Positions 4,093 through 22,522 of a DNA stretch of 23,842 nt are shown here, one piece after another; position 1 is the stretch's first letter; every line of letters starts with the position of its first letter. The position numbers were made by a program, and so were the translations under genes. This stretch comes from a virus: IMG/VR virus record IMGVR_UViG_3300028772_000064, positions 1 through 23,842 of that record; one strand, given 5' to 3'. The notes under the pieces are model-generated. The model was not told the origin of the DNA, searched no databases, and saw only the letters and a program-made list of their open reading frames with translations.

Positions 4093-4099
4093 CATTATT

Positions 4100-4188
4100 C
4101 AAAACCGCCAATCTGCGGGTTTTGAACTATCCAAAACCCGAAATCTGCGGGTTTTGAACTATCCAAAACCCGAAATCTGTAGGTTTTG
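4100..4188. repeat. Three tandem 32-bp repeats, each an inverted repeat
   Basis: Units at 4100-4124, 4132-4156 and 4164-4188 share the pattern CAAAACCCG, a 7-base spacer (AAATCTG), then CGGGTTTTG, and repeat every 32 bp. The middle unit is exact; the outer ones differ at a few bases within one arm. They fill the 133-bp gap between the dNMP kinase stop and the helicase start on the minus strand. Three regularly spaced dyads suggest cooperative protein binding (operator or second iteron set). As RNA each unit would form a 9-bp hairpin, so an attenuator or processing role is also possible. Confidence 0.7.
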
Positions 4189-4192
4189 AACT

Positions 4193-4759: not shown

Positions 4760-4770
4760 AAGCCATCCCC

Positions 4771-4798
4771 GTAGAGACGCAAAATCTTGCGTCTCTAC
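4771..4798. repeat. 28-bp palindromic repeat, copy 1 (loop AATC)
   Basis: The arms are GTAGAGACGCAA and TTGCGTCTCTAC, a perfect 12-bp inverted repeat around a 4-base loop AATC. It lies 11 bases upstream of the dNMP kinase start. This copy is identical to the one at 22487-22514. No T-run follows on either strand, so it is not a classical terminator. Confidence 0.9.
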
Positions 4799-4816
4799 CT
4801 TTATTTTTTGTATAAA

Positions 4817-5771: not shown

Positions 5772-5930
5772 TTAAATGGCATCCGCTTTCTGCTTTAATT
5801 TTTCTTTAAGCGCATCTTTTATGTATTCGGACATAGACACACCTAGATTTTCAGAGGCTTTAACAAGCTCTATTTTCAGGTATTCGGGTAATACAATCTG
5901 GAATCGGACTGTTTTTATTTTTGATTTCAT
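5772..5930 (-). CDS. Ribbon-helix-helix (CopG-like) protein divergent from tnpB
   Basis: Bases 5930 down to 5772 encode a 52-residue protein beginning MKSKIKTVRFQIVLPEYLK and ending in a lysine-rich helix. A short basic strand (KTVRFQIVLP), helix A, a GVSMSEY turn and helix B (IKDALKEKLK) are the ribbon-helix-helix plan. RHH proteins bind DNA as dimers through the strand and usually repress their own promoter. The gene starts 46 bases from tnpB in the opposite direction, across a symmetric spacer. On the other strand the same bases could be read as an N-terminal extension of tnpB, but that extension has no TnpB features, while this reading is a clean RHH. Its role in controlling tnpB is inference. 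Confidence 0.7.
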   Translation of the reverse strand: MKSKIKTVRFQIVLPEYLKIELVKASENLGVSMSEYIKDALKEKLKQKADAI

Positions 5931-5979
5931 GTGTAATTTACTGTGCATGTGTGTTTTACTGTGCTATATTATACACATG
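5928..5979. promoter_or_regulatory. Symmetric divergent operator between RHH gene and tnpB
   Basis: The gap between the two divergent genes is bounded by an 8-bp inverted repeat that includes both start codons: CATGTGTA (5928-5935) and TACACATG (5972-5979). Inside are direct repeats TTTACTGTGC at 5937-5946 and 5955-5964, 18 bp apart, and a leftward TATAAT (complement of 5968-5973). Repeated short sites are how RHH proteins bind, so shared control of both genes is likely. Confidence 0.55.
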
Positions 5980-7107
5980 AAAATCATGAAAGCCTATAAA
6001 TTCAAGTTTGAACCAACAAAAGCACAAGCTGCACAACTGGCTATCGAGTTCGGTTGTGCGCGGTTTGTCTGGAATCGTGGATTGATTGAGAGGGATTATG
6101 CCTATAAAAACTGGGATGTTAGCCTGAACTCAAACGATTTGAGCCGACATATTACCCAGTACAAGAAAACAGAATATCCGTGGTTGTGTGATGCAACAGC
6201 CGGTGTGTTGAACCAAAAACTGATTGACCAGGATAAGGCGTTCGATAACTTTTTTAAGGGCCGGGCAAAGTTCCCAAAGTTCAAGAAAAAGAGCCATGCA
6301 CAAAGTATCAGGTATCAACTGGATCAACGGATTGTACTGAATAATTTTCGTGCTGGTGAGTTGCTGAAGTTGCCTAAACTTGGCGAATTGAAAGTGAAAT
6401 GGTCACAAGTACCCGGTGGAATACCCAAGATGGTTACGGTTAGCAAGTCTGCCAGTGGCAAGTATTTTGTCGGTTTCATGTGCGAGGTTGAGCAGGGCTT
6501 AATGCCAATGACTGGAAAGGTTGTCGGTATTGATGTCGGCATAAAGGACGTAGTTGTAACCAGTGATGGATTTCACTCAGGCGCACCGAAGTATACGTAT
6601 TATTACCAGCGTAGGCTCAAGAAGGCGCAACGGGTTTTAAGCAGGAAAAAGAAAGGTAGTAACGGATGGAAGAAGCAACGGATTGTTGTAGCGAGGATTC
6701 ATGAGACGATAACCAACTCTCGGAAGGATTTCTTGCACAAGCTCACGACTAAACTTGTGAGTGAAAATGATGTTATCTGTGTTGAGGATTTGAATGTATC
6801 CGGCATGTTGAAGAATCGCAAGTTATCAAAAGCGGTTGCAGATGTGGGTATATTCGAGCTAAACCGGCAGATTGAATACAAGGCGCAATGGTACGGAAAA
6901 GAAGTGGTTAAAATTAGTCGCTGGTTTCCGAGTACCAAGACGTGCTCAAGTTGTGGCGAAATAAAGCCTATGAAATTGAGCGAAAGAGTTTATGAATGTG
7001 GTTGCGGATTGTCTCTTGATAGGGATTTGAATGCAGCCATAAATATAAAAATGGCTGGGTTAGCCATGAGTGGAGCCATATATCAACCAGAGAAGGTAGC
7101 AGCGTGA
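5977..7107 (+). CDS. tnpB: RNA-guided endonuclease TnpB
   Basis: The 376-residue protein has the N-terminal 'AYKFKFEPTKAQ' opening of TnpB and a split RuvC nuclease: D186 in GIDVGIKD, E270 in VICVEDLNV, and DRDLNAAINI with D348/D350. A zinc finger, C323-x2-C326 and C341-x-C343, lies before the last acid. All catalytic residues are present, so the nuclease is probably active. TnpB uses an omega RNA from the element's right end to cut DNA next to a short motif, which retains the element at its site. The start at 5977 was chosen because sequence upstream belongs to the divergent RHH gene; Met at 5986 is equally possible. The omega RNA would overlap the end of this gene and the hairpin after it. 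Confidence 0.93.
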   Translation: MKIMKAYKFKFEPTKAQAAQLAIEFGCARFVWNRGLIERDYAYKNWDVSLNSNDLSRHITQYKKTEYPWLCDATAGVLNQKLIDQDKAFDNFFKGRAKFPKFKKKSHAQSIRYQLDQRIVLNNFRAGELLKLPKLGELKVKWSQVPGGIPKMVTVSKSASGKYFVGFMCEVEQGLMPMTGKVVGIDVGIKDVVVTSDGFHSGAPKYTYYYQRRLKKAQRVLSRKKKGSNGWKKQRIVVARIHETITNSRKDFLHKLTTKLVSENDVICVEDLNVSGMLKNRKLSKAVADVGIFELNRQIEYKAQWYGKEVVKISRWFPSTKTCSSCGEIKPMKLSERVYECGCGLSLDRDLNAAINIKMAGLAMSGAIYQPEKVAA

Positions 7108-8191: not shown

Positions 8192-8226
8192 AGACGCCGT
8201 AGAGACGCAAAATATTGCGTCTCTAC
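8188..8226. repeat. 28-bp palindromic repeat, copy 2 (loop AATA), plus half copy
   Basis: The full copy is 8199-8226 with the same 12-bp arms as the others and loop AATA. A half unit, GTAGAGACGC at 8188-8197, precedes it directly and supplies the TAG stop of the protease. The half copy suggests repeated insertion or duplication at this spot. Confidence 0.9.
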
Positions 8227-8245
8227 AAAACAAAAATTAATATTT

Positions 8246-10050: not shown

Positions 10051-10055
10051 TCGAT

Positions 10056-10083
10056 GTAGAGACGCAAGCTATTGCGTCTCTAC
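10056..10083. repeat. 28-bp palindromic repeat, copy 3 (loop GCTA)
   Basis: It has the same 12-bp arms GTAGAGACGCAA/TTGCGTCTCTAC with a different loop, GCTA. It lies 5 bases after the capsid gene stop and 33 bases before the next start. Confidence 0.9.
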
Positions 10084-10116
10084 GAAAACCGAAATTATTT
10101 ATTTCAGGAGTAAAGC

Positions 10117-12254: not shown

Positions 12255-12887
12255 ATGAGCTTATTACGTGGACAATCCAACGCAGTGGGCGGCGGTGATA
12301 TACCCGTTTTTGTTGATGCGGCAACTAACGCCATGTTAACTAAATCAGCATCAGGCGCGTTAGCGTCGGGCGAGGCCCATATAGGTGAAGTCGGCGGCAA
12401 TATGCTTACGATTTCCGCCGAAATGACACGGCCAGCCGACACCACGGCTTATACGGCTGGTGATGTGGTCAGCAATAACGCGACAACGACAACACCCGTG
12501 CAGTTAGCCAATATTTTCAGGGTGGCTAGCGGCAGTGGTTATATCGTTAAACTGCGTCTGGTCACTGATAAAAAATCAATTACGCCACGATTGAGACTGC
12601 ATATTTTCAATGTCAACACCGCGACAGTAGCAGCAGATAACGCGCCGTATAAAGAACTTTACGCTGATTCAGACAAGCGCCTGGGTTATTGGGATATGCC
12701 CGCGATGATAACAGCAGCCGATACTACCAATTCCGATATGAGTCGGACATTGGATTTAAACTGTCGAATAGCCGTTACTGCGGCCAATGGATCACGCGAT
12801 CTGTTTGTCGTTTATGAAGCCTTGGACGGATTCACCCCGGCATCTGGGCAAAAATTCAATATAACGGCTGTGATGGACAATAACTAA
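12255..12887 (+). CDS. Cassette A carrier protein: beta-rich, shared domain with 18293-19270
   Basis: This 210-residue protein is unrelated to head or neck proteins. It shares its domain (about residues 40-209) with the C-terminal half of the product of 18293-19270: HIGxV, then RPA-x-x-TAY, 'RVASGSGYIVKLRLVT', 'RLRLHIFNV', 'GYWDM' and 'DGFTPASGQKF'. This is a jelly-roll-like beta domain by appearance, with no known catalytic residues. It has a good ribosome site (CAGGAAAAAAAG). Its stop overlaps the next start as TAATG. It likely carries or anchors the following adhesin-like protein on the virion, an inference from pairing and shared domain. Confidence 0.5.
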   Translation: MSLLRGQSNAVGGGDIPVFVDAATNAMLTKSASGALASGEAHIGEVGGNMLTISAEMTRPADTTAYTAGDVVSNNATTTTPVQLANIFRVASGSGYIVKLRLVTDKKSITPRLRLHIFNVNTATVAADNAPYKELYADSDKRLGYWDMPAMITAADTTNSDMSRTLDLNCRIAVTAANGSRDLFVVYEALDGFTPASGQKFNITAVMDNN

Positions 12888-14368
12888 TGTTCCGGCTTCG
12901 TGAAAGGCGATTATTTACGTCTAAAGCTGCTGCAATTCCCAGCTTTTACCAAAATTATGCCACCACGCCACAGATTGATTCCCGCATAACGTGGGCGCGT
13001 AACATTACCGCAACCTGCATGGCTTATGCACCCACAGCCGTAGCAGGCGATTTGCCGATATTAACAACGTGTGCGGCTAATGAACCACGTTTTAACAATG
13101 CAAGGCGTATCGGTCAGAATAATTGGAGCGCAATATTAAATGATGGCTCGGCAATACCATTGCCAATTACCTTGTTGGCGGAGGAAGCCCGTACTAATTT
13201 ACTGGTAACACCCGCTACACCAGCAACGCAGAATATAACGACGACTGCACAGCCCTATACTGTTTCAATGTGGGGGACAGGCACATGTGTTTTAACAGGA
13301 ACAGCGACAGGAACACTAACAGGAACAGGCGCAACGGATAGAGTTTCATTAACAGTACCAGCTACAGCCGGGACTTTAACGCTGACATTTTCTGGAACTA
13401 ACACTAATGGACAGTTTGAAGCTGGTCCTACTATGTCTAGTTATATTCCTAACAATACGCCTCGTGTGGCCGATGTTGCCAGTTTAACAGGTGTAGGTTT
13501 AAGTTGGTACAACGCCGAGCAAGGCACTTTTGTTATCAAAGCATCTGGAAAATACTCATCGGCTCCTGGTAATATCGGTGTGTGGAATCCCTTATTAACG
13601 GGCGAAGGCACGTATGCCATTCGGTACAATAAAAACATTGATAATAGTGCATATCTCTATTTGCCCAATGCGCAAGCGGGTGTAAATCCTGTTGAATATC
13701 AATATATTCCAACGCCGACGACGATTTTACTGTGTGAACAGGGCATTATTAATATCAGTAGTTGGACATATTATCCGAGTGATCTAACGCCTTCTGTTTG
13801 TGCTGGTTTGGTTAATGGCACATTGACGACGATTTTTGATACTAGCTATGCGGCAACCTCAAATTTTACTAGCGCATTTCAAACCTATCCCTGGTTTAGT
13901 GCAAAATATTTTCCAAAAATTAACACGTCTAACGCAACAAATTTAAGTCTTGCATGGTATCAATTACCTGTACCGACTTTTCCAAGTATTGACACCACTA
14001 AAGTTACCAACTTTACATCAGCATTTAGAGTTTTAATTAATTTAGTTATCTTTCCGCTATTGAATACGATAGCCGCTACCAATTTTAACTTATCATGGGA
14101 CGGGGATACTTCATTGACCACATTCCCTCCTAACTTTTTTGATAATGCTAAAGCTACTGTTTATACAAATTCCTTTAGAAACTGTGCATTGTCTCAAACA
14201 TCCGTTGATAATATTCTGGTGTCTATTAATCAGTCGAGATTGAATACGCCAAGTTTGATTAACGGCACTCTAAATATGACAGGCGGGACTAACGCAACTC
14301 CATCAGCGACAGGGCTTGCAGCGAAAGCTGCATTAGTAGCAGCAGGATGGGCAGTGAGCCATAACTAG
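12887..14368 (+). CDS. Cassette A adhesin-like protein with BspA-type repeats
   Basis: This is a 493-residue AT-rich gene. The N-terminal third has the phage-tail pattern 'PRFNNARRIGQNNWSA', 'LLAEEARTNLLV', then beta strands ending at 'GQFEAGPTMSSYIPNNTPRV', typical of fiber-associated carbohydrate-binding proteins. The C-terminal part (about 310-450) is a run of degenerate ~20-residue repeats (NATNLSLAW, FPSIDTTKVTNFTSAF, FPLLNTIAATNFNLSW, LTTFPPNFFDNAKATVYTNSF) like BspA/DUF285 leucine-rich repeats. It closes with 'TNATPSATGLAAKAALVAAG'. The likely role is host-surface binding. It is coupled to its carrier by TAATG. Confidence 0.6.
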   Translation: MFRLRERRLFTSKAAAIPSFYQNYATTPQIDSRITWARNITATCMAYAPTAVAGDLPILTTCAANEPRFNNARRIGQNNWSAILNDGSAIPLPITLLAEEARTNLLVTPATPATQNITTTAQPYTVSMWGTGTCVLTGTATGTLTGTGATDRVSLTVPATAGTLTLTFSGTNTNGQFEAGPTMSSYIPNNTPRVADVASLTGVGLSWYNAEQGTFVIKASGKYSSAPGNIGVWNPLLTGEGTYAIRYNKNIDNSAYLYLPNAQAGVNPVEYQYIPTPTTILLCEQGIINISSWTYYPSDLTPSVCAGLVNGTLTTIFDTSYAATSNFTSAFQTYPWFSAKYFPKINTSNATNLSLAWYQLPVPTFPSIDTTKVTNFTSAFRVLINLVIFPLLNTIAATNFNLSWDGDTSLTTFPPNFFDNAKATVYTNSFRNCALSQTSVDNILVSINQSRLNTPSLINGTLNMTGGTNATPSATGLAAKAALVAAGWAVSHN

Positions 14369-14394
14369 AGTATAATCAATACGTTATAACAGTT

Positions 14395-14478
14395 TTGTGT
14401 CTAGGTTTAGCGGCTGAAAAGAGGGAAACCTACCCTCCTGACACAATTTTTAAAGTAGGTATTTTGATGAGGTGTCAG
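14395..14478 (+). ncRNA. Predicted pseudoknot leader RNA with alternative start-site hairpin
   Basis: P1 pairs TTGTGTC (14395-14401) with GACACAA (14440-14446). Inside, P2 pairs TAGGTTT (14402-14408) with AAACCTA (14426-14432). The P2 loop GAGGG (14421-14425) pairs with CCCTC (14433-14437), forming an H-type pseudoknot. CTGACAC (14438-14444) can instead pair with GTGTCAG (14472-14478), just before the ATG at 14480 and next to the GAGG ribosome site, so P1 and the start-site hairpin exclude each other. This looks like a translational switch for the HNH gene. I do not recognise it as a named motif. Confidence 0.5.
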
Positions 14479-14479
14479 A

Positions 14480-14739
14480 ATGTTAACGCAAGAAATAGTA
14501 AGAGAACACATAAATTACGATCCACAAACCGGAATCGTAAAATGGATAAAGCCAAGAGCTAGACGGGTAAAGGTTGGAGATACCGTAGATTGTTTAATTC
14601 ATGGGTATCTAAGGATTGTTTTATATTCAAAATATTATGCACTTATTCAAAACGGTTTGATACTTTAGAAGAAGCAGAAATGAATATAAAAATAGTAAGG
14701 GAACATATCCACAAAGAATTTGTGTGTCATGGCGAATAA
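14480..14739 (+). pseudogene. Decayed HNH homing endonuclease (internal deletion)
   Basis: The first frame encodes 62 residues beginning MLTQEIVREHINYDPQTGIV, with 'GDTVDCLIHGYLRIVLYSKYY', the opening of free-standing phage HNH/AP2-type endonucleases. It stops at 14666-14668 without HNH residues. The +2 frame from about 14639 continues 'CTYSKRFDTLEEAEMNIKIV' and 'REHIHKEFVCHGE', the AP2-like C-terminal end of such proteins. The catalytic middle is therefore missing. A short repeat, TATTCAAAA, flanks the join and could have mediated the deletion. Selfish HNH genes commonly sit between phage structural genes, as here after cassette A. Confidence 0.6.
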
Positions 14740-14746
14740 CTAAATT

Positions 14747-15340
14747 GTGAATTTAAACCTCGTCATTGCTCAACTGCGCACGTATTGCCCGTCTTTCGGC
14801 GGGCGCGTGGCCGGTTCTGCGCGTTTCAAGCGTTTGGATGAAGCGGGCAACCTGACCGTCCCGGCCGCCTACGTGATCCCGTTGGACGACAACCCCGGCG
14901 AACGGATGAGTCTTAACGATGTCAGGCAGCCGATTACCGAATCATTTGCCATCATCGTAGCGCTCAGCAACACGCCGGATGAACGCGGTCAGGCAGCTAT
15001 TAATTCTGCGCATGACAGCATTCGGGCTGAGCTCTGGAAGGCCTTAATAGGCTGGCAACCCGACCCCGTGACCTATCGCGGCGTCGAATACCAGGGTGGC
15101 AACCTGCTTGATTTGGACCGCTCTCGCCTATGGTATCAATTCGATTTTGGCGCGTACATGGAAATAGCCCCGGAAGACGGTTGGCAGGGCGTTGAACTGG
15201 CCGCCTTGCCGCATTTTGTTGGTGCAACGATTAACGTTGACGACATCGATCCTGCCGCCGACCCTAATTTGCATTACCCCGGCCCGGACGGGCGCATAGA
15301 ACATATTGTAAAATCACCCCCCACCGGCGTTTTGCCCTAG
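14747..15340 (+). CDS. Tail terminator, Mu gp37-like
   Basis: The 197-residue product has 'NLVIAQLRTYCPSFGGRVAG', 'VPAAYVIPLDDNPGE', 'ITESFAIIVALSNTPDERG', an 'IRAELWKALIGWQPD' helix and 'LLDLDRSRLWYQFDF'. This fits the phage tail terminator family (Mu gp37/DUF1834 type), which caps the tail and joins it to the neck. The start is GTG 14747 with no obvious ribosome site; the upstream cassette and HNH remnant probably displaced it. Next are a DUF2635 protein and the sheath, the Mu order. Confidence 0.75.
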   Translation: MNLNLVIAQLRTYCPSFGGRVAGSARFKRLDEAGNLTVPAAYVIPLDDNPGERMSLNDVRQPITESFAIIVALSNTPDERGQAAINSAHDSIRAELWKALIGWQPDPVTYRGVEYQGGNLLDLDRSRLWYQFDFGAYMEIAPEDGWQGVELAALPHFVGATINVDDIDPAADPNLHYPGPDGRIEHIVKSPPTGVLP

Positions 15341-15348
15341 GAGTTACC

Positions 15349-15531
15349 ATGTTTGTAAAACCCGCTTCCGGACTGTTTGTGACTGATCCGGATCGCAACG
15401 ATATTTTGCCTCCCGAAGGGCGAAACGTCGAACCACATCAATACTGGCTGCGCCGTCTGGAAGATGGCGACGTAATAGAAACAACGCCGCCGGTCGATGC
15501 GCCGGTTAAAGCGGAAAAGGACAAGGGGTAA
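15349..15531 (+). CDS. DUF2635 (Mu gp38-like) small tail protein
   Basis: A 60-residue protein, 'MFVKPASGLFVTDPDRNDIL' then PPEGR and 'YWLRRLEDGDVI'. This is the DUF2635 signature of a small protein encoded just before the sheath in Mu-like phages. Its role in tail assembly is not established. It has a good ribosome site (AGGAG) and lies between the terminator and sheath as expected. Confidence 0.88.
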   Translation: MFVKPASGLFVTDPDRNDILPPEGRNVEPHQYWLRRLEDGDVIETTPPVDAPVKAEKDKG

Positions 15532-15534
15532 GTT

Positions 15535-17052
15535 ATGGCCGTCTCATTTAATTATATTCCCGCCGGTAACGGCGTTCGCGTCCCGCTGTTTTATGCGGAA
15601 ATGGACAATAGCCAAGCCGGTTATTTCACCCAGTCGTTGAGATCCTTGATGATCGGGCAAAAACTGGCCGCCGGTACTGCCGTCGCCAACGTGCCTTATC
15701 TGGTTTCGCAAACCAGCCAGGCCATAGCCCTGTTTGGTCAAGGCTCCATGCTGGCCCGTATGCATGCCATTTACCGCCTGTCCGATCCGACCGGCGAGCT
15801 TTGGTGCATGGCCGTGGCTGATGCTGGTGGCGGCGTGCAGGCGACCGGGACGATCACGGTAACCGGTCCTGCCACGGCGGCGGGTACGATCAATCTTTAT
15901 ATCGGCGGCCAACGCGTGCAAGTCGCGGTCGGCAGTACCGATATTGCTACCGCCATCGCGACCAACATTAACGCCGCCATCAACGCGGCGCTGGATTTGC
16001 CGGTCACGTCAACCGTGGCAAGCGCTGTCGTAACGCTCACCTGCCGTTGGAAAGGGGCGACCGGCAACGATATTGCCGTGCTGGATTCCTATCGGGGCAG
16101 TGCAGGCGGTGAAGCGCTGCCCACTGGCGTGGCGCTGACCTATACAGGCAGTAATTTCCTTACAACAGGCGCAACTAACCCGACACTGACCGGCGCGATT
16201 ACGGCCATGGGCGATGACGCCTACGACTTTGTTATTCATCCTTTCACCGACAGCGGCAGCCTGGATGTATTCGCCACTGAATATGGCGATTCTTCCGGAC
16301 GCTGGTCGTGGTCTCGGCAAGTTTACGGGCATTGTTATTCAGCTTTACGCGGCGCATTAGGCGCACTCAGCACCGCCGGTGGTTTGCGTAACGATCCGCA
16401 CCATACCATTGCCGCCATCGATCTTGATTGCCAGCATCCCTGTTGGGAATACGCAGCGGCTTACGGCGCACGCAATGCGGTTTATATCGCCGCCGATCCG
16501 GCACGACCCACGCAAACCGGTGAACTCACCGGCTTGATGGCTCCACGGGCGGGGAAAAAGTTTATCTGGTCTGAACGCAATGTCCTGCTTAACTACGGCA
16601 TCGCCACCAGCTTTATCGTATCCGGCGTGATCCAGATTGAGCGGGCCATCACGACTTATCAGAAAAACACCTTTGCACAGGCCGATCCCAGTTATCTGGA
16701 TTCGGAAACCTTGCATACAGCGGCCTACGTGTTGCGCTATCTGCGCTACGCCATCACGCAGAAATACGCACGCCACAAACTGGCCAATGACGGCACCCGT
16801 TTTGGACCAGGCAACGCCATTGTCACGCCATCAGTGATTCGCGGCGAGCTGTTGGCGGCTTACGATACACTGATGATGTTAGGTATTGTTGAGAATAAAG
16901 AAGCGTTTAATACCTATCTGATTGTCGAACGTGATGGGCTTAATCCCAATCGCGTCAATGTGCTATTCCCTCCAGATTACGTGAATCAGCTAAGGGTTTT
17001 CGCTGTGCTCAATCAATTCCGTCTACAGTATCCTGTTCAGGCCGCCGCGTAA
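15535..17052 (+). CDS. Contractile tail sheath protein, Mu gpL-like
   Basis: This 505-residue sheath has the Mu gpL layout. The N-terminal strand 'NYIPAGNGVRVPLFYAEMDN' is followed by 'LIGQKL'-type segments and 'QAIALFGQGSMLARMHAIYR'. A surface domain ('GTINLYIGGQRVQVAVG', 'DIATAIATNINAAINA', 'KGATGNDIAVL') precedes the sheath core ('YDFVIHPFTD', 'IVERDGLNPNRVNVLFPPDY'). The sheath surrounds the tube and contracts at infection, so the particle is a myovirus. The tube gene would normally follow directly; here a 4.4-kb fiber cassette intervenes. Confidence 0.95.
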   Translation: MAVSFNYIPAGNGVRVPLFYAEMDNSQAGYFTQSLRSLMIGQKLAAGTAVANVPYLVSQTSQAIALFGQGSMLARMHAIYRLSDPTGELWCMAVADAGGGVQATGTITVTGPATAAGTINLYIGGQRVQVAVGSTDIATAIATNINAAINAALDLPVTSTVASAVVTLTCRWKGATGNDIAVLDSYRGSAGGEALPTGVALTYTGSNFLTTGATNPTLTGAITAMGDDAYDFVIHPFTDSGSLDVFATEYGDSSGRWSWSRQVYGHCYSALRGALGALSTAGGLRNDPHHTIAAIDLDCQHPCWEYAAAYGARNAVYIAADPARPTQTGELTGLMAPRAGKKFIWSERNVLLNYGIATSFIVSGVIQIERAITTYQKNTFAQADPSYLDSETLHTAAYVLRYLRYAITQKYARHKLANDGTRFGPGNAIVTPSVIRGELLAAYDTLMMLGIVENKEAFNTYLIVERDGLNPNRVNVLFPPDYVNQLRVFAVLNQFRLQYPVQAAA

Positions 17053-17061
17053 AAAAAAGCC

Positions 17062-17089
17062 GTAGAGACGCAATATTTTGCGTCTCTAC
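17062..17089. repeat. 28-bp palindromic repeat, copy 4 (loop TATT)
   Basis: The same 12-bp arms flank loop TATT. It lies 9 bases after the sheath stop and 31 bases before the first gene of cassette B, at the left junction of that cassette. Confidence 0.9.
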
Positions 17090-17120
17090 AAATAATTCCA
17101 AGCGAATAGATTAAGAAATC

Positions 17121-17474
17121 ATGACGGCCGCTAAATTAAACCTACCTGTTATTGAAAAAGGCGCAACGTATCGGCATACGCTGATCTGGCAGGATTCAAA
17201 CGGCCAACCGATTAACCTGACTAATTGTACCGCAAAATTACAGGTACGTGAGGACCCTGCGGCGATAACGGCTTTGCTTGAACTTAGCACCGAGAACAGC
17301 CGCATTACGCTTACGCCGTCCACGGGGAAAATAGACTTTTATGTCACCGCTCATGATACCGACGCGCTAATAGGCGCGGGCGGTTTTTATGATCTGGAAA
17401 TCTATTTTTTAAACGGGGACACGGTGCGCTTGTGTTCCGGTATGCTGCCGTTTAGCGAACAAATAACGCGATGA
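17121..17474 (+). CDS. Small beta-rich tail-associated protein
   Basis: This 117-residue protein begins 'LNLPVIEKGATYRHTLIWQD' and continues 'INLTNCTAKLQVRE', then 'ITLTPSTGKIDFYVTAHDTD' and 'GGFYDLEIYFLNGDTVRLCSG'. The pattern K-G-A-T-Y/F, then 'LTxxTAxLQVR', is a common immunoglobulin-like fold found in phage fiber clusters, often first in an operon of fiber genes. No enzyme motif is present. It ends in an ATGA overlap with the collagen-like gene. The exact role is unknown. Confidence 0.6.
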   Translation: MTAAKLNLPVIEKGATYRHTLIWQDSNGQPINLTNCTAKLQVREDPAAITALLELSTENSRITLTPSTGKIDFYVTAHDTDALIGAGGFYDLEIYFLNGDTVRLCSGMLPFSEQITR

Positions 17475-17788
17475 CCGACACAATTGTTTTAGTCACGCCG
17501 GTCATTGATGTACTTGTTACAGACCCACAATCGGTCAATGTAATAAAGACAGCCGAACAAGGTCCGCCGGGGTCAACGGGCGCAACAGGGGCGACAGGGG
17601 CAACGGGTGCAACAGGGGCGACAGGGGCGACAGGGGCAAAAGGTGACAAGGGGGATACGGGTAGTATCAGTAATTTGAATGCCATAATTAACTTACCCAA
17701 TATAACTGGAACTATTGATTTTAATAATAAATATCGTCTGGCTTATAACCCTAATACGAATAGTTTAGACTTTACCTATCTTGGCTGA
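17471..17788 (+). CDS. Collagen-like virion protein
   Basis: The 105-residue product has about 30 residues of N-terminal beta-like sequence, then eleven G-x-y triplets (residues 31-64: GPP, GST, six GAT, GAK, GDK, GDT) and a C-terminal region 'NLNAIINLPNITGTIDFNNK'. Phage collagen-like segments form trimeric stalks in fibers, and GAT triplets are typical of bacterial versions that lack hydroxyproline. The repeat is encoded by near-identical 9-bp units. It overlaps the upstream gene by ATGA. The likely role is a trimeric spacer in a fiber. Confidence 0.8.
   Translation: MTDTIVLVTPVIDVLVTDPQSVNVIKTAEQGPPGSTGATGATGATGATGATGATGAKGDKGDTGSISNLNAIINLPNITGTIDFNNKYRLAYNPNTNSLDFTYLG
17579..17632 (+). 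repeat. Tandem 9-bp units coding the collagen-like stalk
   Basis: Six near-identical 9-bp units (pattern GGxGCxACx) encode six GAT triplets. Arrays like this are prone to slippage and can change stalk length by whole triplets without frameshift. Confidence 0.75.
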
Positions 17789-17793
17789 TAACC

Positions 17794-18282
17794 ATGCGAG
17801 AGATACAGATAACTCACCGGTTTGCCAGTGCTAAGCCTGACAGTTCAGACCTTACCTTAATACAGCCCTCCAACTGGAATGATAGCCATGTCGTCGGTAA
17901 TTCAATACCCCATGAATTAGCACAGACCGGCACTAATATCGCCGTTGATACCTCAGTATCTACGTCATTTAAAGCGGTTCTGTCAGGCAATCATTTTTTA
18001 GAAAACCCGACGCATTTGGTTGAGGGTGACACGCTGTTATTTATATTTACGCAAGATTCAACCGGTAAGCGGCTGCTGACGTTTGACACACTGTATAAAG
18101 TTTCGGGCAGTTCATCGTTGAGCACTAAAGCGGGTTCAATTGATGTACTGAGTTGTTATTACAATGGCGCCTATTTGCTGTGTACCTTACAGCGTAACTT
18201 TACGACACCCATTTCCTACTCGGCAGGAACGATGGATTTTAGTGTGATACAAGGTTCTGGACTCATAACCCTAATTCAGTGA
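17794..18282 (+). CDS. Fiber-type protein with phage tail N-terminus
   Basis: This 162-residue protein opens with 'ITHRFASAKPDSSDLTLIQP' then SNWNDSH, an N-terminal motif shared by many phage fiber and collar proteins (HRF-x-S-x-K-x-D, then QPSNWN). The rest is beta-rich ('LLFIFTQDSTGKRLLTFDTL', 'LLCTLQRN') and has no catalytic motif. Many relatives place this motif at the start of a long fiber; here it is a short separate gene. It could be a virion attachment subunit for neighbouring proteins. Confidence 0.55.
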   Translation: MREIQITHRFASAKPDSSDLTLIQPSNWNDSHVVGNSIPHELAQTGTNIAVDTSVSTSFKAVLSGNHFLENPTHLVEGDTLLFIFTQDSTGKRLLTFDTLYKVSGSSSLSTKAGSIDVLSCYYNGAYLLCTLQRNFTTPISYSAGTMDFSVIQGSGLITLIQ

Positions 18283-18292
18283 AAAATTTATT

Positions 18293-19270
18293 ATGCCAAC
18301 CACTATAAAAGTTTTAGATTCTGACGGCGTGCCGCAGACTATCAATACGAATCCCGCACTCGGACAAGCGCTCGCTGCTGCCAGTCTCCCTGTCGTATTG
18401 GCAAGCGATCAGCCCACGATTCCTGTTGCAACCAATGCGGAAGGAACCATAGGCGCAGGGAGCGCACCCAGCAAATCATTAATTGGCGGGGGTATTTATA
18501 ACGCATCAAGATTAACGTTGGCATCCGGGCAAGGGTCAGCTTTGCAATTAGATTCAGATGGTTCTTTATACGTTAATGTGGCCGATATAGGTAGTGTTGC
18601 GACTTCTGCAAAACAAGATACGCAAACAACAGCCCTTGGAACCTTAGCCTTAGAGAACGGGGGTAATCTTGCCGCTATTTTAGCCAAGATTATTGCAGCG
18701 CCTGCAACAGCAGCTGCGCAAGCCACCTTGTTATCTGCTATTCAAGCAGGACTTTATCCCAGTGAGAACCACATAGGCTTTGTTTCAGGCAGCAGTATCG
18801 TCGTGACGGCCACGTTCAACAGACCTGCGAACGCAACGGCTTATGCGGCTTTAGCGTCAATCTCGGATTCAACAACTGCGCCCACTATTCTCACGTTTGC
18901 CAATATGGGCAGAGTAAACGCGGGGAGCGGCTATATCACGAAAGCGCGATTAATAACCAATCAAAGCACCAACACGGCGCGTTATCGATTGCATCTTTAC
19001 AATGTAGCGCCGACCGCTATTAACGATGGCGCGGCGTATACAAATTTATCGGCTAATAAAGCCAATAAAATCGGTTATATCGATTTTGACCCGATGGCAA
19101 CCGAAGGGGCGGGTTCAGACATCGCAGAGTCTCTAAACGCGACCTGCCGATTAGCGTTTTTATGTGCCGCCGCCTCCAGGACTTTATATGGGGCATTGCA
19201 AACCAAAGACGTTTTCACGCCTGCCAGCGGTCAAACTTATTTTGTAGAGCTAACACCTGAGCAAAATTAA
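18293..19270 (+). CDS. Cassette B carrier protein with shared C-terminal domain
   Basis: In this 325-residue protein, residues 1-160 carry the phage-structural pattern 'TIKVLDSDGVPQTIN', 'AAASLPVVLASDQPTIPVAT', 'SLIGGGIYNASRLTLASGQG', and 'ATSAKQDTQTTALGTLA', seen in many tail-associated proteins. Residues about 160-325 match the whole cassette A carrier (12255-12887): HIGFV, RPANATAY, 'RVNAGSGYITKARLIT', 'RYRLHLYNV', 'KIGYIDFD' and 'DVFTPASGQTYF'. It joins the SGNH esterase gene by TAATG. The two-domain form suggests that the N-terminal part attaches to the virion and the C-terminal part holds the partner; that is inference. Confidence 0.55.
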   Translation: MPTTIKVLDSDGVPQTINTNPALGQALAAASLPVVLASDQPTIPVATNAEGTIGAGSAPSKSLIGGGIYNASRLTLASGQGSALQLDSDGSLYVNVADIGSVATSAKQDTQTTALGTLALENGGNLAAILAKIIAAPATAAAQATLLSAIQAGLYPSENHIGFVSGSSIVVTATFNRPANATAYAALASISDSTTAPTILTFANMGRVNAGSGYITKARLITNQSTNTARYRLHLYNVAPTAINDGAAYTNLSANKANKIGYIDFDPMATEGAGSDIAESLNATCRLAFLCAAASRTLYGALQTKDVFTPASGQTYFVELTPEQN

Positions 19271-20661
19271 TGAGGCCGTTCAATGCCCGTAGTCTAGTAG
19301 CTTCTGCCTTAGTCAGGAAGAAGTATACGTACGCTCAAGTTTCATCAGGCTTTACTGGGCCATTGGATGCGACTACTACAGCTAATACGCTCTATGGCAT
19401 CGTCAATGGCGCGACGACCTGGAATGGCTGGGTGACCGGGACAGATTTATATATGACGGCTTCTTCAGGATCGGGCACTGTCGCCGCTCTTTTGGAAGTC
19501 AGCATTGATGATGGCCTTTGGTTTACGCCCTCTTACCTTTCCTCAATGCCAGGTTTCTATACTATTTTTACTGGAAAACCCCATAGCCAGTATCAAGTCT
19601 GTATACGGTTCAAAGGCTCTGCATTCAACCCAAAGTGGATGACGAACACAAGCACGGAAGCTAATCCGTTGTTTATTGTTGACGGAGCCTATTCGCCGTC
19701 TATTGTACCCGTTTTAACGTGGGTTCAATGCAATGACGGCAATGCCTTAACTGCTTGGAGTTCGTGTAATGTGGCGGCAACCGGAGGCGGCGGCACTAAC
19801 TATGTCCCCGCTTACTTGCCAGGATCAATAAGCCTGGTTTCAGGGACTGCCATACCGTCGGTAAAATTTAAAACTAACGCAACCCGGATGGTCGTCATTA
19901 ATCCTGATCCGTATGTTTTTGTTTCTATAGACGGAGCGGCTTACACCCGGTACAAGTGTTCTTTGGCGACTCAGGTCTATCATACGACCCACATTCCACT
20001 GGATGGCGCTACACACACCTATAACGTATGGCAAAGCTCAGCACGGGGGACGTTTAACGTTTTTGCTGTCGGGCTTGATGCGGCGGTCGTCGATTGCGGT
20101 ACAAAAAGGCGGATGGATCAATATGGTTCATCAACGACAGCAGGCGCCGGGGTAGGCGCGTCCAATTCAGACGGGCAGGTTGATACGATGTCCGTGGCTT
20201 CCGCATTAGGTTTGGTAGGTTCCACTTATGGCATATCCGGAGAAAACATAGCCGGGTTTGTTGCCAGAATGACGGCCTTGTTAGCCGCAAAAACCGTGGC
20301 ATCTACTGATGTTTGCATCCTTCAACTAGGCGCTAATGATATTGGCGTATTGGATGCAACGGCGCAAACGAATATAACAAACATAATCACCGCAATGTTA
20401 ACGAAAGGTTATGGAAAAATCATTGTACGTGGAAATTTAACCGTGTTGGGCGAGGCGGGTTCAACGACGACGCTTAAAACAGCTGATAATATAACAATCG
20501 GTAATTTGGTGACCGCCTACGGCAATGCGAATGTACGTTTTGTAAACCCCATTGCGCTAGCTTGGGGCGTTGTCGATTCACCGGATGCAACGCATCCATC
20601 AGTCGTTGGTTATCAAACGATTACACCCCTTGAAGTGACTGCCTATAGCCCTTTAATTTAA
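19270..20661 (+). CDS. SGNH/GDSL hydrolase, likely tail-borne deacetylase/esterase
   Basis: This 463-residue protein has an N-terminal beta-rich region (about 1-270) and a C-terminal SGNH hydrolase: block I 'YGSSTTAG' with nucleophile S288, block III 'QLGANDIG' with N356, and block V 'DATHP' with D439 and H442. The full triad is present. Phage-tail SGNH enzymes remove acetyl or other esters from surface polysaccharides to reach the cell. There is no signal peptide, which fits a virion protein rather than a secreted enzyme. It is coupled by TAATG to its carrier (18293-19270). Confidence 0.82.
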   Translation: MRPFNARSLVASALVRKKYTYAQVSSGFTGPLDATTTANTLYGIVNGATTWNGWVTGTDLYMTASSGSGTVAALLEVSIDDGLWFTPSYLSSMPGFYTIFTGKPHSQYQVCIRFKGSAFNPKWMTNTSTEANPLFIVDGAYSPSIVPVLTWVQCNDGNALTAWSSCNVAATGGGGTNYVPAYLPGSISLVSGTAIPSVKFKTNATRMVVINPDPYVFVSIDGAAYTRYKCSLATQVYHTTHIPLDGATHTYNVWQSSARGTFNVFAVGLDAAVVDCGTKRRMDQYGSSTTAGAGVGASNSDGQVDTMSVASALGLVGSTYGISGENIAGFVARMTALLAAKTVASTDVCILQLGANDIGVLDATAQTNITNIITAMLTKGYGKIIVRGNLTVLGEAGSTTTLKTADNITIGNLVTAYGNANVRFVNPIALAWGVVDSPDATHPSVVGYQTITPLEVTAYSPLI

Positions 20662-20662
20662 G

Positions 20663-20923
20663 ATGGCCTTTAGTCCTGCCTTTAACCCAGCATTTTATCA
20701 GGTTAATCTAGGGCCCCTTCTAGGGATTGTTCTCGTTAGAATAACCTCTGATTTAGAACTCCGTTGTTTAGGCGAGTTTATTGAAGGAAACGGGCCCGTA
20801 TCATTGGACACCCAAGGCAATATTAAAGCCTATGAGTTTATTGAGATGGCTAATATCTTAAGATTGAATGATCAATCAGGTTTGATGGCTTGCCAATTGA
20901 CTGAACAGGTGGGCAATATCTAA
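20663..20923 (+). CDS. Small protein of cassette B, unknown function
   Basis: This 86-residue protein, 'MAFSPAFNPAFYQVNLGPLL' followed by beta-prone sequence and 'EFIEGNGPVSLDTQGNIKAY', has no family I recognise. It starts 2 bases after the esterase stop and ends in a TAATG overlap with the next gene, so it is surely expressed with the cassette. The N-terminal 'NPAFYQ' and the lack of catalytic residues suggest a structural or chaperone part of the fiber. Confidence 0.45.
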   Translation: MAFSPAFNPAFYQVNLGPLLGIVLVRITSDLELRCLGEFIEGNGPVSLDTQGNIKAYEFIEMANILRLNDQSGLMACQLTEQVGNI

Positions 20924-21495
20924 TGGCACAGTTAAAAACAGGGACAACGGTAGGCGGTTACCAAGTATTGACGGGGCAAGATGTCGCCTACCTTGCCCAA
21001 TTAGTATTAGCGCCGCCCCCGGTTATTATTACCGGGACATCGACAGCAGGCTCAACCCTTATCACAATGGCTTCAACGACAGGTGTTTTGTCGGGAATGC
21101 AGGTTAACGGTGTCGGCAGTCCCTTAACCACGGCTTTGGCCTGTATGCTGCAAGGCGCGAACGATACGGTAACGGCAACCGCACATGGCTTGGCAAATGG
21201 CGATCTAGTCTCGTTTGCAACGCTGGTCACCACGACGGGCATTGCTATCTATACGCCGTATTATGTCGTCAATGCAACGACTAATATATTCCAGCTTGCT
21301 TTAACCGCAGGCGGCGCGGCTATAGATTTAGGTGGTGATGGCAGCGGAACAATTTTATATAGAGCAACAATAACGACTGTCAATACCAATGTCAGCGTGG
21401 TACTCAATCGGAAAATGACCGGTTCAGGTTTGGCTAATTTTGAATATCGGGCATTTAATACGGGATTAGCCTTGATGAGAGGCTGGGCAATTTAA
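20923..21495 (+). CDS. Fiber/tail protein with FCCH-like beta domain
   Basis: The 190-residue product starts 'MAQLKTGTTVGGYQVLTGQD', a motif frequent in phage fiber proteins. It then has an embedded beta domain (about 80-146: 'NDTVTATAHGLANGDLVSF', 'YTPYYVVNATTNIFQLALT', 'GGAAIDLGGDGSGT') of the kind often found inserted in phage structural proteins. The same domain type occurs in the gp6 connector. The C-terminus 'NRKMTGSGLANFEYRAFNTG' is beta-like. It ends cassette B before the tail tube gene. The role is probably adhesion; a receptor is not predictable. Confidence 0.5.
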   Translation: MAQLKTGTTVGGYQVLTGQDVAYLAQLVLAPPPVIITGTSTAGSTLITMASTTGVLSGMQVNGVGSPLTTALACMLQGANDTVTATAHGLANGDLVSFATLVTTTGIAIYTPYYVVNATTNIFQLALTAGGAAIDLGGDGSGTILYRATITTVNTNVSVVLNRKMTGSGLANFEYRAFNTGLALMRGWAI

Positions 21496-22316: not shown

Positions 22317-22522
22317 CACCTGCTGACACACTGCCAGCCAATTTGACGCGCTGCAAAGGTCGCGATTGCACCGAAACAGCCGCCTGTTTGCGGTACGTGA
22401 CCATAGGACGTGACCCAATAGATCGGCATTACTCCTATATCGAAACCGGTATGCACAAAGAATCTGGCTGTATTTTCAAAATCGAGGTAGAGACGCAAAA
22501 TCTTGCGTCTCTACGGGGATAA
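22313..22522 (+). CDS. Cysteine-rich small protein, C-terminus made of palindromic repeat
   Basis: This 69-residue protein starts in an ATGA overlap with the frameshift product's stop. It carries 'RCKGRDCTETAACLRY' (C14, C19, C25) and one later Cys (C53), so it may bind zinc. Small Cys-rich proteins of this kind occur between chaperone and tape measure in Mu-like tails; the function is unknown. Its last 13 or so residues (VETQNLASLRG) are translated from the palindromic repeat at 22487-22514, so the native C-terminus was probably displaced by insertion. It stops 3 bases before the tape measure start. Confidence 0.6.
   Translation: MTPADTLPANLTRCKGRDCTETAACLRYVTIGRDPIDRHYSYIETGMHKESGCIFKIEVETQNLASLRG
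22487..22514. repeat. 28-bp palindromic repeat, copy 5 (loop AATC)
   Basis: Identical to copy 1 at 4771-4798. It lies inside the 3' end of the small Cys-rich gene and 11 bases before the tape measure start, and is translated in the upstream gene. Confidence 0.9.

Follow-up and report, generated by a model that had tools for sequence, protein, structure and literature searches.

Anchor-branched receptor-binding proteins, as described for the K1-5 gp37 adapter, G7C gp66/gp63.1, and the KP32/KP34 groups, consist of a mount and a docked branch (PMC6872550). In these systems, an exchangeable depolymerase or esterase docks by a short conserved N-terminal peptide of at least 7 residues (PMC6872550). 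The window studied here, which is the whole 23,842-nucleotide stretch of an IMG/VR virus record, belongs to a contractile-tailed phage. Pfam and PHROGs identified its core genes as capsid, head completion, tail completion, tail terminator, sheath, tube, tail assembly chaperone, and tape measure. Two cassettes, A and B, stand among these genes, each with a carrier gene and a different partner gene directly behind it (Table 1). By analogy with the anchor-branched systems, we lean, with slightly more confidence than doubt, towards a carrier that would act as a socket on the virion and a partner, adhesin or esterase, that would plug in through an Arg-rich docking peptide, the two being linked by coupled translation.

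Table 1. Features of cassettes A and B in the window
Feature	Position	Strand	Evidence and remarks
Carrier A	12255..12887	+	210 aa; predicted jelly-roll domain, residues 36-210 (12360-12884); HMM match 5e-57
TAATG stop/start overlap A	12885..12889	+	sequence
Partner A	12887..14368	+	493 aa repeat protein, C-terminal half plausibly BspA-like; phrog_34853 E=2e-34
Proposed docking peptide of partner A, MFRLRERRLFTSKAAA	12887..12934	+	basic N-terminus common to partners; putative function
LtfC-like adaptor, first gene of cassette B	17121..17474	+	phrog_1084 E=1e-20; phrog_3304 (L-shaped tail fibre assembly) E=4.6e-6
Collagen-like fibre protein	17471..17788	+	PF01391 above cut-off; 9-nt tandem repeats 17559-17657
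Tail-fibre-like protein	17794..18282	+	phrog_4549 tail fibre E=4.5e-7
Carrier B	18293..19270	+	325 aa; N-terminal 155 residues low-confidence, then predicted jelly-roll 18752-19267
TAATG stop/start overlap B	19268..19272	+	sequence
Partner B	19270..20661	+	463 aa SGNH/GDSL esterase; hydrolase domain ~residues 285-451
Proposed docking peptide of partner B, MRPFNARSLVASALVRKK	19270..19323	+	basic N-terminus
Small protein of cassette B	20663..20923	+	no convincing family (PHROGs, Pfam)
Fibre-like protein, last gene of cassette B	20923..21495	+	phrog_9370 tail fibre E=2e-10

Cassette A (12255-14368), which has only the carrier and partner genes, separates the tail-completion gene from the tail terminator (PF23840); cassette B (17121-21495) separates sheath (PF04984) from tube (PF10618). 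The comparison covered 76 other relatives of the sheath gene (52–83% identity), many of them so close to one another that they are not independent witnesses. The gap from sheath to tube is no more than 98 nt in 74 of the 75 measurable cases, and that from the completion to the terminator gene no more than 73 nt in 64/67. Since both flanking gene pairs are adjacent in relatives, cassettes A and B are insertions into the structural gene series, which agrees with the claim of an earlier sequence-only reading that the cassettes break core adjacency. The open reading frames do lie at the coordinates given in that reading. Cassette B had been drawn too small in it; it comprises seven genes. GC3 is 0.53–0.64 in the core genes vs. 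0.34–0.52 in the cassettes, so that flanks adjacent in relatives without the cassettes and a different composition, the marks of a moron-type insertion, are both present. Sites resembling sigma-70 promoters, the type searched for, were at chance level (13 vs. 15.5) as a sign of promoters of the cassettes' own, and terminator-like sites were not above it (15 vs. 11.8). In the nearest relative, L006, whose sheath is 96% identical, cassette A is present, its two genes paired and overlapping as they are here, and cassette B is absent. Thus, A most likely arrived before B, with B gained in the present phage, or else B was lost from L006.

Smaller insertions with no detectable carrier were also observed at these boundaries, namely a sheath-tube gap of 624 nt in L106 and completion-terminator gaps of 631 nt (L152), 485 nt (L158), and 278 nt (L120). 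Cassette A is bordered on its right by a low-GC gap (34%) with a short open frame (14480-14668) that resembles the beginning of an HNH homing endonuclease; this frame may be left over from the insertion, and L006 carries a different gene at this place. The palindrome GTAGAGACGCAA(N)TTGCGTCTCTAC has five copies (4768-4801, 8196-8229, 10053-10086, 17059-17092, and 22484-22517) in or near intergenic gaps, one of them at the left edge of cassette B; it resembles the intergenic repeats of bacteria, here present in a phage. Elsewhere, the window holds a TnpB-like IS605 OrfB gene (5776-7107; PF01385, PF07282, PF12323) and, near the primase gene, three 32-nt tandem repeats (4096-4191) and a 50-nt direct repeat with inverted TGGACCA-rich arms (1045-1402).

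Residues 36-210 of carrier A align to residues 154-325 of carrier B with 39% identity (E=1e-33), so the domain that the sequence-only reading had seen in carrier A and the C-terminal half of carrier B is indeed shared; these are the only two copies in the whole record. Their presence in one genome could reflect duplication inside the phage, which would by itself explain their likeness, but we regard this as very improbable given the low identity between the two, the closer relatives found elsewhere (83% identity to A in L006, and 49–50% to B in L019-L022), and the occurrence of A without B in L006.

Profile scans of viral contigs, with carriers found through one or two conserved motifs, returned 112 and then 308 carrier relatives. 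A scan of genome contigs gave one carrier locus only, probably owing to a strict pattern. The named phages with carriers are Rhizobium Schitoviridae and Kleczkowskaviridae, Rhizobium phage PPF1, Caulobacter Lullwatervirus (Autographiviridae), and Aphanizomenon phage CL131, for which virion proteomics gave 23 structural proteins (PMC6293099). No PHROGs family catches more than one of 51 carrier members, and no solved structure in the PDB matches the carrier profile by sequence. The carrier domain is an unnamed family of its own, present in phages of several families. The model of carrier B residues 160-325 (pLDDT mostly >90) predicts a jelly-roll that weakly resembles the cement proteins Pam1 and KHP40 (7eel_H: E=7.6e-4, TM by target 0.44; 7dou: E=1.7e-3) as well as TNF-like lectins. 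The best 50 PDB fold matches listed were jelly-rolls, lectins, and similar folds, and T4 gp10 was absent among them. Tandem carrier domains precede one partner in L046 (5521-6498 and 6501-7094) and likewise in L045, indicating that some phages stack carriers.

To the question of whether carrier and partner are anything other than ordinary late-operon neighbours, the carrier being a capsid or tail decoration, the partner a separately attached fibre, and their spacing the usual compactness of such genomes, the loci give answers of both kinds. Carrier relatives occur in head regions as well as tail regions; in L054, L074, L070, and L020, they are found close after the major capsid gene, unlike in the window, and the weak resemblance of the predicted fold to cement proteins points the same way. 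In about ten loci, what comes after the carrier is not an adhesin gene but one for a portal or head-tail adaptor (e.g., L081, L039, and L040) or an unrelated gene. We dereplicated the first carrier set to 61 loci, picked gene starts by a simple rule, and used 420 gene pairs from the same loci as controls. The next gene starts within −14 to +12 nt of the carrier in 54/61 loci; control pairs are often tight as well (218/420), though less so. One-base overlaps were found for 20/61 carriers vs. 44/420 control pairs (p=1.7e-5), and junctions elsewhere have 2–6 nt gaps or 4-nt overlaps instead. A second scan added 25 dereplicated carrier clusters, with 23/24 coupled.

The close neighbours of carriers fall into 26 families by blastp. 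Among 51 partners scanned with Pfam, LamG was found in nine and SGNH in two, and DUF285, arabinofuranosidase, Ig-like, and carbohydrate-binding domains were also seen; the partners that can be named are mostly glycan-binding or esterase-like. This recurrence of the pairing with unrelated partners in unrelated phages argues against ordinary neighbours. The sequence-only reading had taken the TAATG at which each carrier stop overlaps the next start, present at both junctions of the window, as part of an exchangeable carrier-plus-effector system. The coupling to a next gene and the variety of partners do extend to unrelated phages, with TAATG merely enriched among them. Partner bodies are also found in hundreds of phages without a carrier and, since some carriers precede head genes, the idea is right in outline and not universal. 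As a defining mark, TAATG was rejected because of this mere enrichment and because a one-base overlap of the same kind at 20923 joins two genes with no carrier involved. A frameshift fusion, for which the partner does lie in the −1 frame, was likewise rejected, given that no canonical slippery site is seen at the two window junctions; no natural carrier-partner fusion was present among the loci fetched by that stage.

Partner B had been read as an SGNH esterase, and its match to PF13472 (E=1.6e-10; 42.2 bits vs. a curated cut-off of 32.9), together with its GSS, GANDI, and DATHPS blocks, bears this out. In L024, L045, and L046, a homologue of the last gene of cassette B is found no more than a few kb from a carrier. 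The description of partner A as BspA-like is plausible rather than proven: it gains from the PHROGs match of the C-terminal repeat half and from strands spaced ~23 residues apart in a low-confidence model (mean pLDDT 51, not used for fold search), while the window copy has no Pfam match of its own at E<1. Homologues of partner A in L006, L184-L186, and L254 likewise come after a carrier. In L184-L186, these homologues (56–60% identity) stand behind a very different carrier, a case of re-pairing, and keep their basic N-terminus.

This basic, Arg-rich N-terminus, missed by the sequence-only reading, is a stronger common feature of the partners than TAATG. Residues 2-16 have a mean net charge of +1.9 vs. 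0.0 in controls (p=1e-8) and 2.1 vs. 0.85 Arg (p=2e-10), and the charge falls to baseline past about residue 21. Examples are MFRLRERRLF (A), MRPFNARSLV (B), MPTLQQKRLIL, MTIQRRRLF, and MAIRRAVRNI. The motif match is loose (35/54 partners vs. 66/218) and does not describe a fixed peptide. Arg outnumbers Lys 104:23, and all six Arg codons are used with no preference, which speaks against Arg codons as a ribosome-binding signal. A signal peptide or membrane anchor was also rejected, as hydrophobicity is too low in 43/44 N-termini and only one passes the hydropathy cut-off. The codon use and the low hydrophobicity suggest that selection acts on the protein. Taken over the 26 partner families, the signal from charge is less strong (p=0.0017), with p=6e-6 reached only by the post hoc choice of setting head and other genes aside. 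In the second sample of 25 clusters, the charge was +1.7 (p=7e-6), with most partners from families already seen; at the family level p was 0.067, and three unrelated new families had no charge signal. Support for the Arg-rich N-terminus is therefore good where partners are related and only moderate where they are not. As a group, carriers are slightly acidic (−2.9) and those with no adhesin partner are more so (−5.1), so electrostatic matching between an acidic carrier and the peptide gets no support.

We then consider partner-body homologues with no detectable carrier. In 16 of these (15 with readable N-termini), the mean charge was +0.7 vs. +2.5 (p=0.005), and they begin with different N-termini or form part of fusions with other domains, several lying deep inside a larger protein; carrier-free homologues of partner B align only from residue 25-49 onward. 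It looks as if another anchor replaces the peptide in such proteins. With spacing, one-base overlap, and N-terminal charge all above the control pairs of the same loci, and carrier-free homologues mostly lacking the basic N-terminus, we judge that ordinary neighbours are an unlikely explanation, though one to be taken seriously. The peptide might instead attach the partner to some generic site of the virion, such as the capsid, the neck, or another fibre, with the carrier co-inherited in a travelling block. The partner B homologue phiK7A1_064 begins MSHLARLLMM behind a different fibre-like gene with a 4-nt overlap, so the peptide perhaps lacks specificity for this carrier, and the further fibre genes of cassette B could be the mount. 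We nevertheless think a generic site rather improbable, because cassette A offers no gene other than carrier and partner, and because the related partners of L184-L186 retain the basic N-terminus next to a distant carrier. In Rhizobium phage vB_RleM_PPF1, the SGNH gene PPF1_32 (L195 5683) seems to have been given too late a start in its annotation: the annotated start is 112 nt past the carrier, whereas the open frame can begin 1 nt past the carrier stop, with MAVSRATRRLLLSKRGYP. It was the N-terminal motif of the partners that pointed to this start.

In the preferred socket reading, each cassette would be an adhesin module gained horizontally. The carrier would be a small structural protein with a jelly-roll head, and we infer its location on the virion, its oligomeric state, and its role as a socket. 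The next gene would encode an exchangeable host-contact protein, a repeat adhesin in A and an SGNH esterase in B, that docks via the short Arg-rich peptide at its N-terminus. A one-base stop-start overlap permits termination-reinitiation and hence coupled synthesis; partner translation may restart at the carrier stop, which would keep the two products in step. More tentatively, and with doubt somewhat outweighing confidence, we propose that one jelly-roll socket family takes non-homologous adhesins and enzymes via an Arg-rich plug as a standard across phages, shared by several phage families and tail types, with the pair insertable at many places in structural operons. If so, a socket family not described by PHROGs or Pfam could serve to find host-contact proteins in unannotated phages via the gene at the carrier stop. 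It would also be a second, unrelated solution to the problem that T4gp10-like mounts solve, and a natural case of a standard connector reused by unrelated viruses.

Compared with known systems, the cassettes share with moron genes the presence of extra genes of other composition between genes adjacent in relatives, and differ in that their products are predicted to be structural and that promoter and terminator signals are not above chance. Trimeric phage cement proteins (Pam1, KHP40; 7eel, 7dou) are likewise small beta-sandwiches with a similar predicted fold, and some carrier relatives lie near the capsid gene; however, the fold match is weak (E ~1e-3), there is no PDB sequence match, and the window carriers are in the neck/tail region. 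PPF1 and Lullwater resemble cassette B in that an SGNH or lipase gene comes after a homologous carrier (PPF1_31; Lullwater gp47), with the difference that a 40-aa gene (MSWTTRIATLSKG) intervenes in Lullwater. In both records the carriers are annotated as hypothetical and no pairing is mentioned. Anchor-branched systems show the closest likeness in plan: one protein as mount, an exchangeable enzyme on an N-terminal peptide, and synteny broken by exchangeable genes (PMC6872550). A short N-terminal peptide was found here too, as basic residues 2-16 across many partner families with a loose motif. Their mount has a T4gp10-like domain, whereas the present carrier is a predicted jelly-roll, small and with no known receptor-binding domain of its own. 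The present peptide is Arg-rich, whereas positive charge is missing from the conserved peptides of Klebsiella phages; in G7C gp63.1, the surface is positively charged. We do not file the carrier systems as anchor-branched because a T4gp10-like mount went undetected and the peptide is of another kind. By analogy, they may nonetheless work like anchor-branched receptor-binding proteins, with a different socket.
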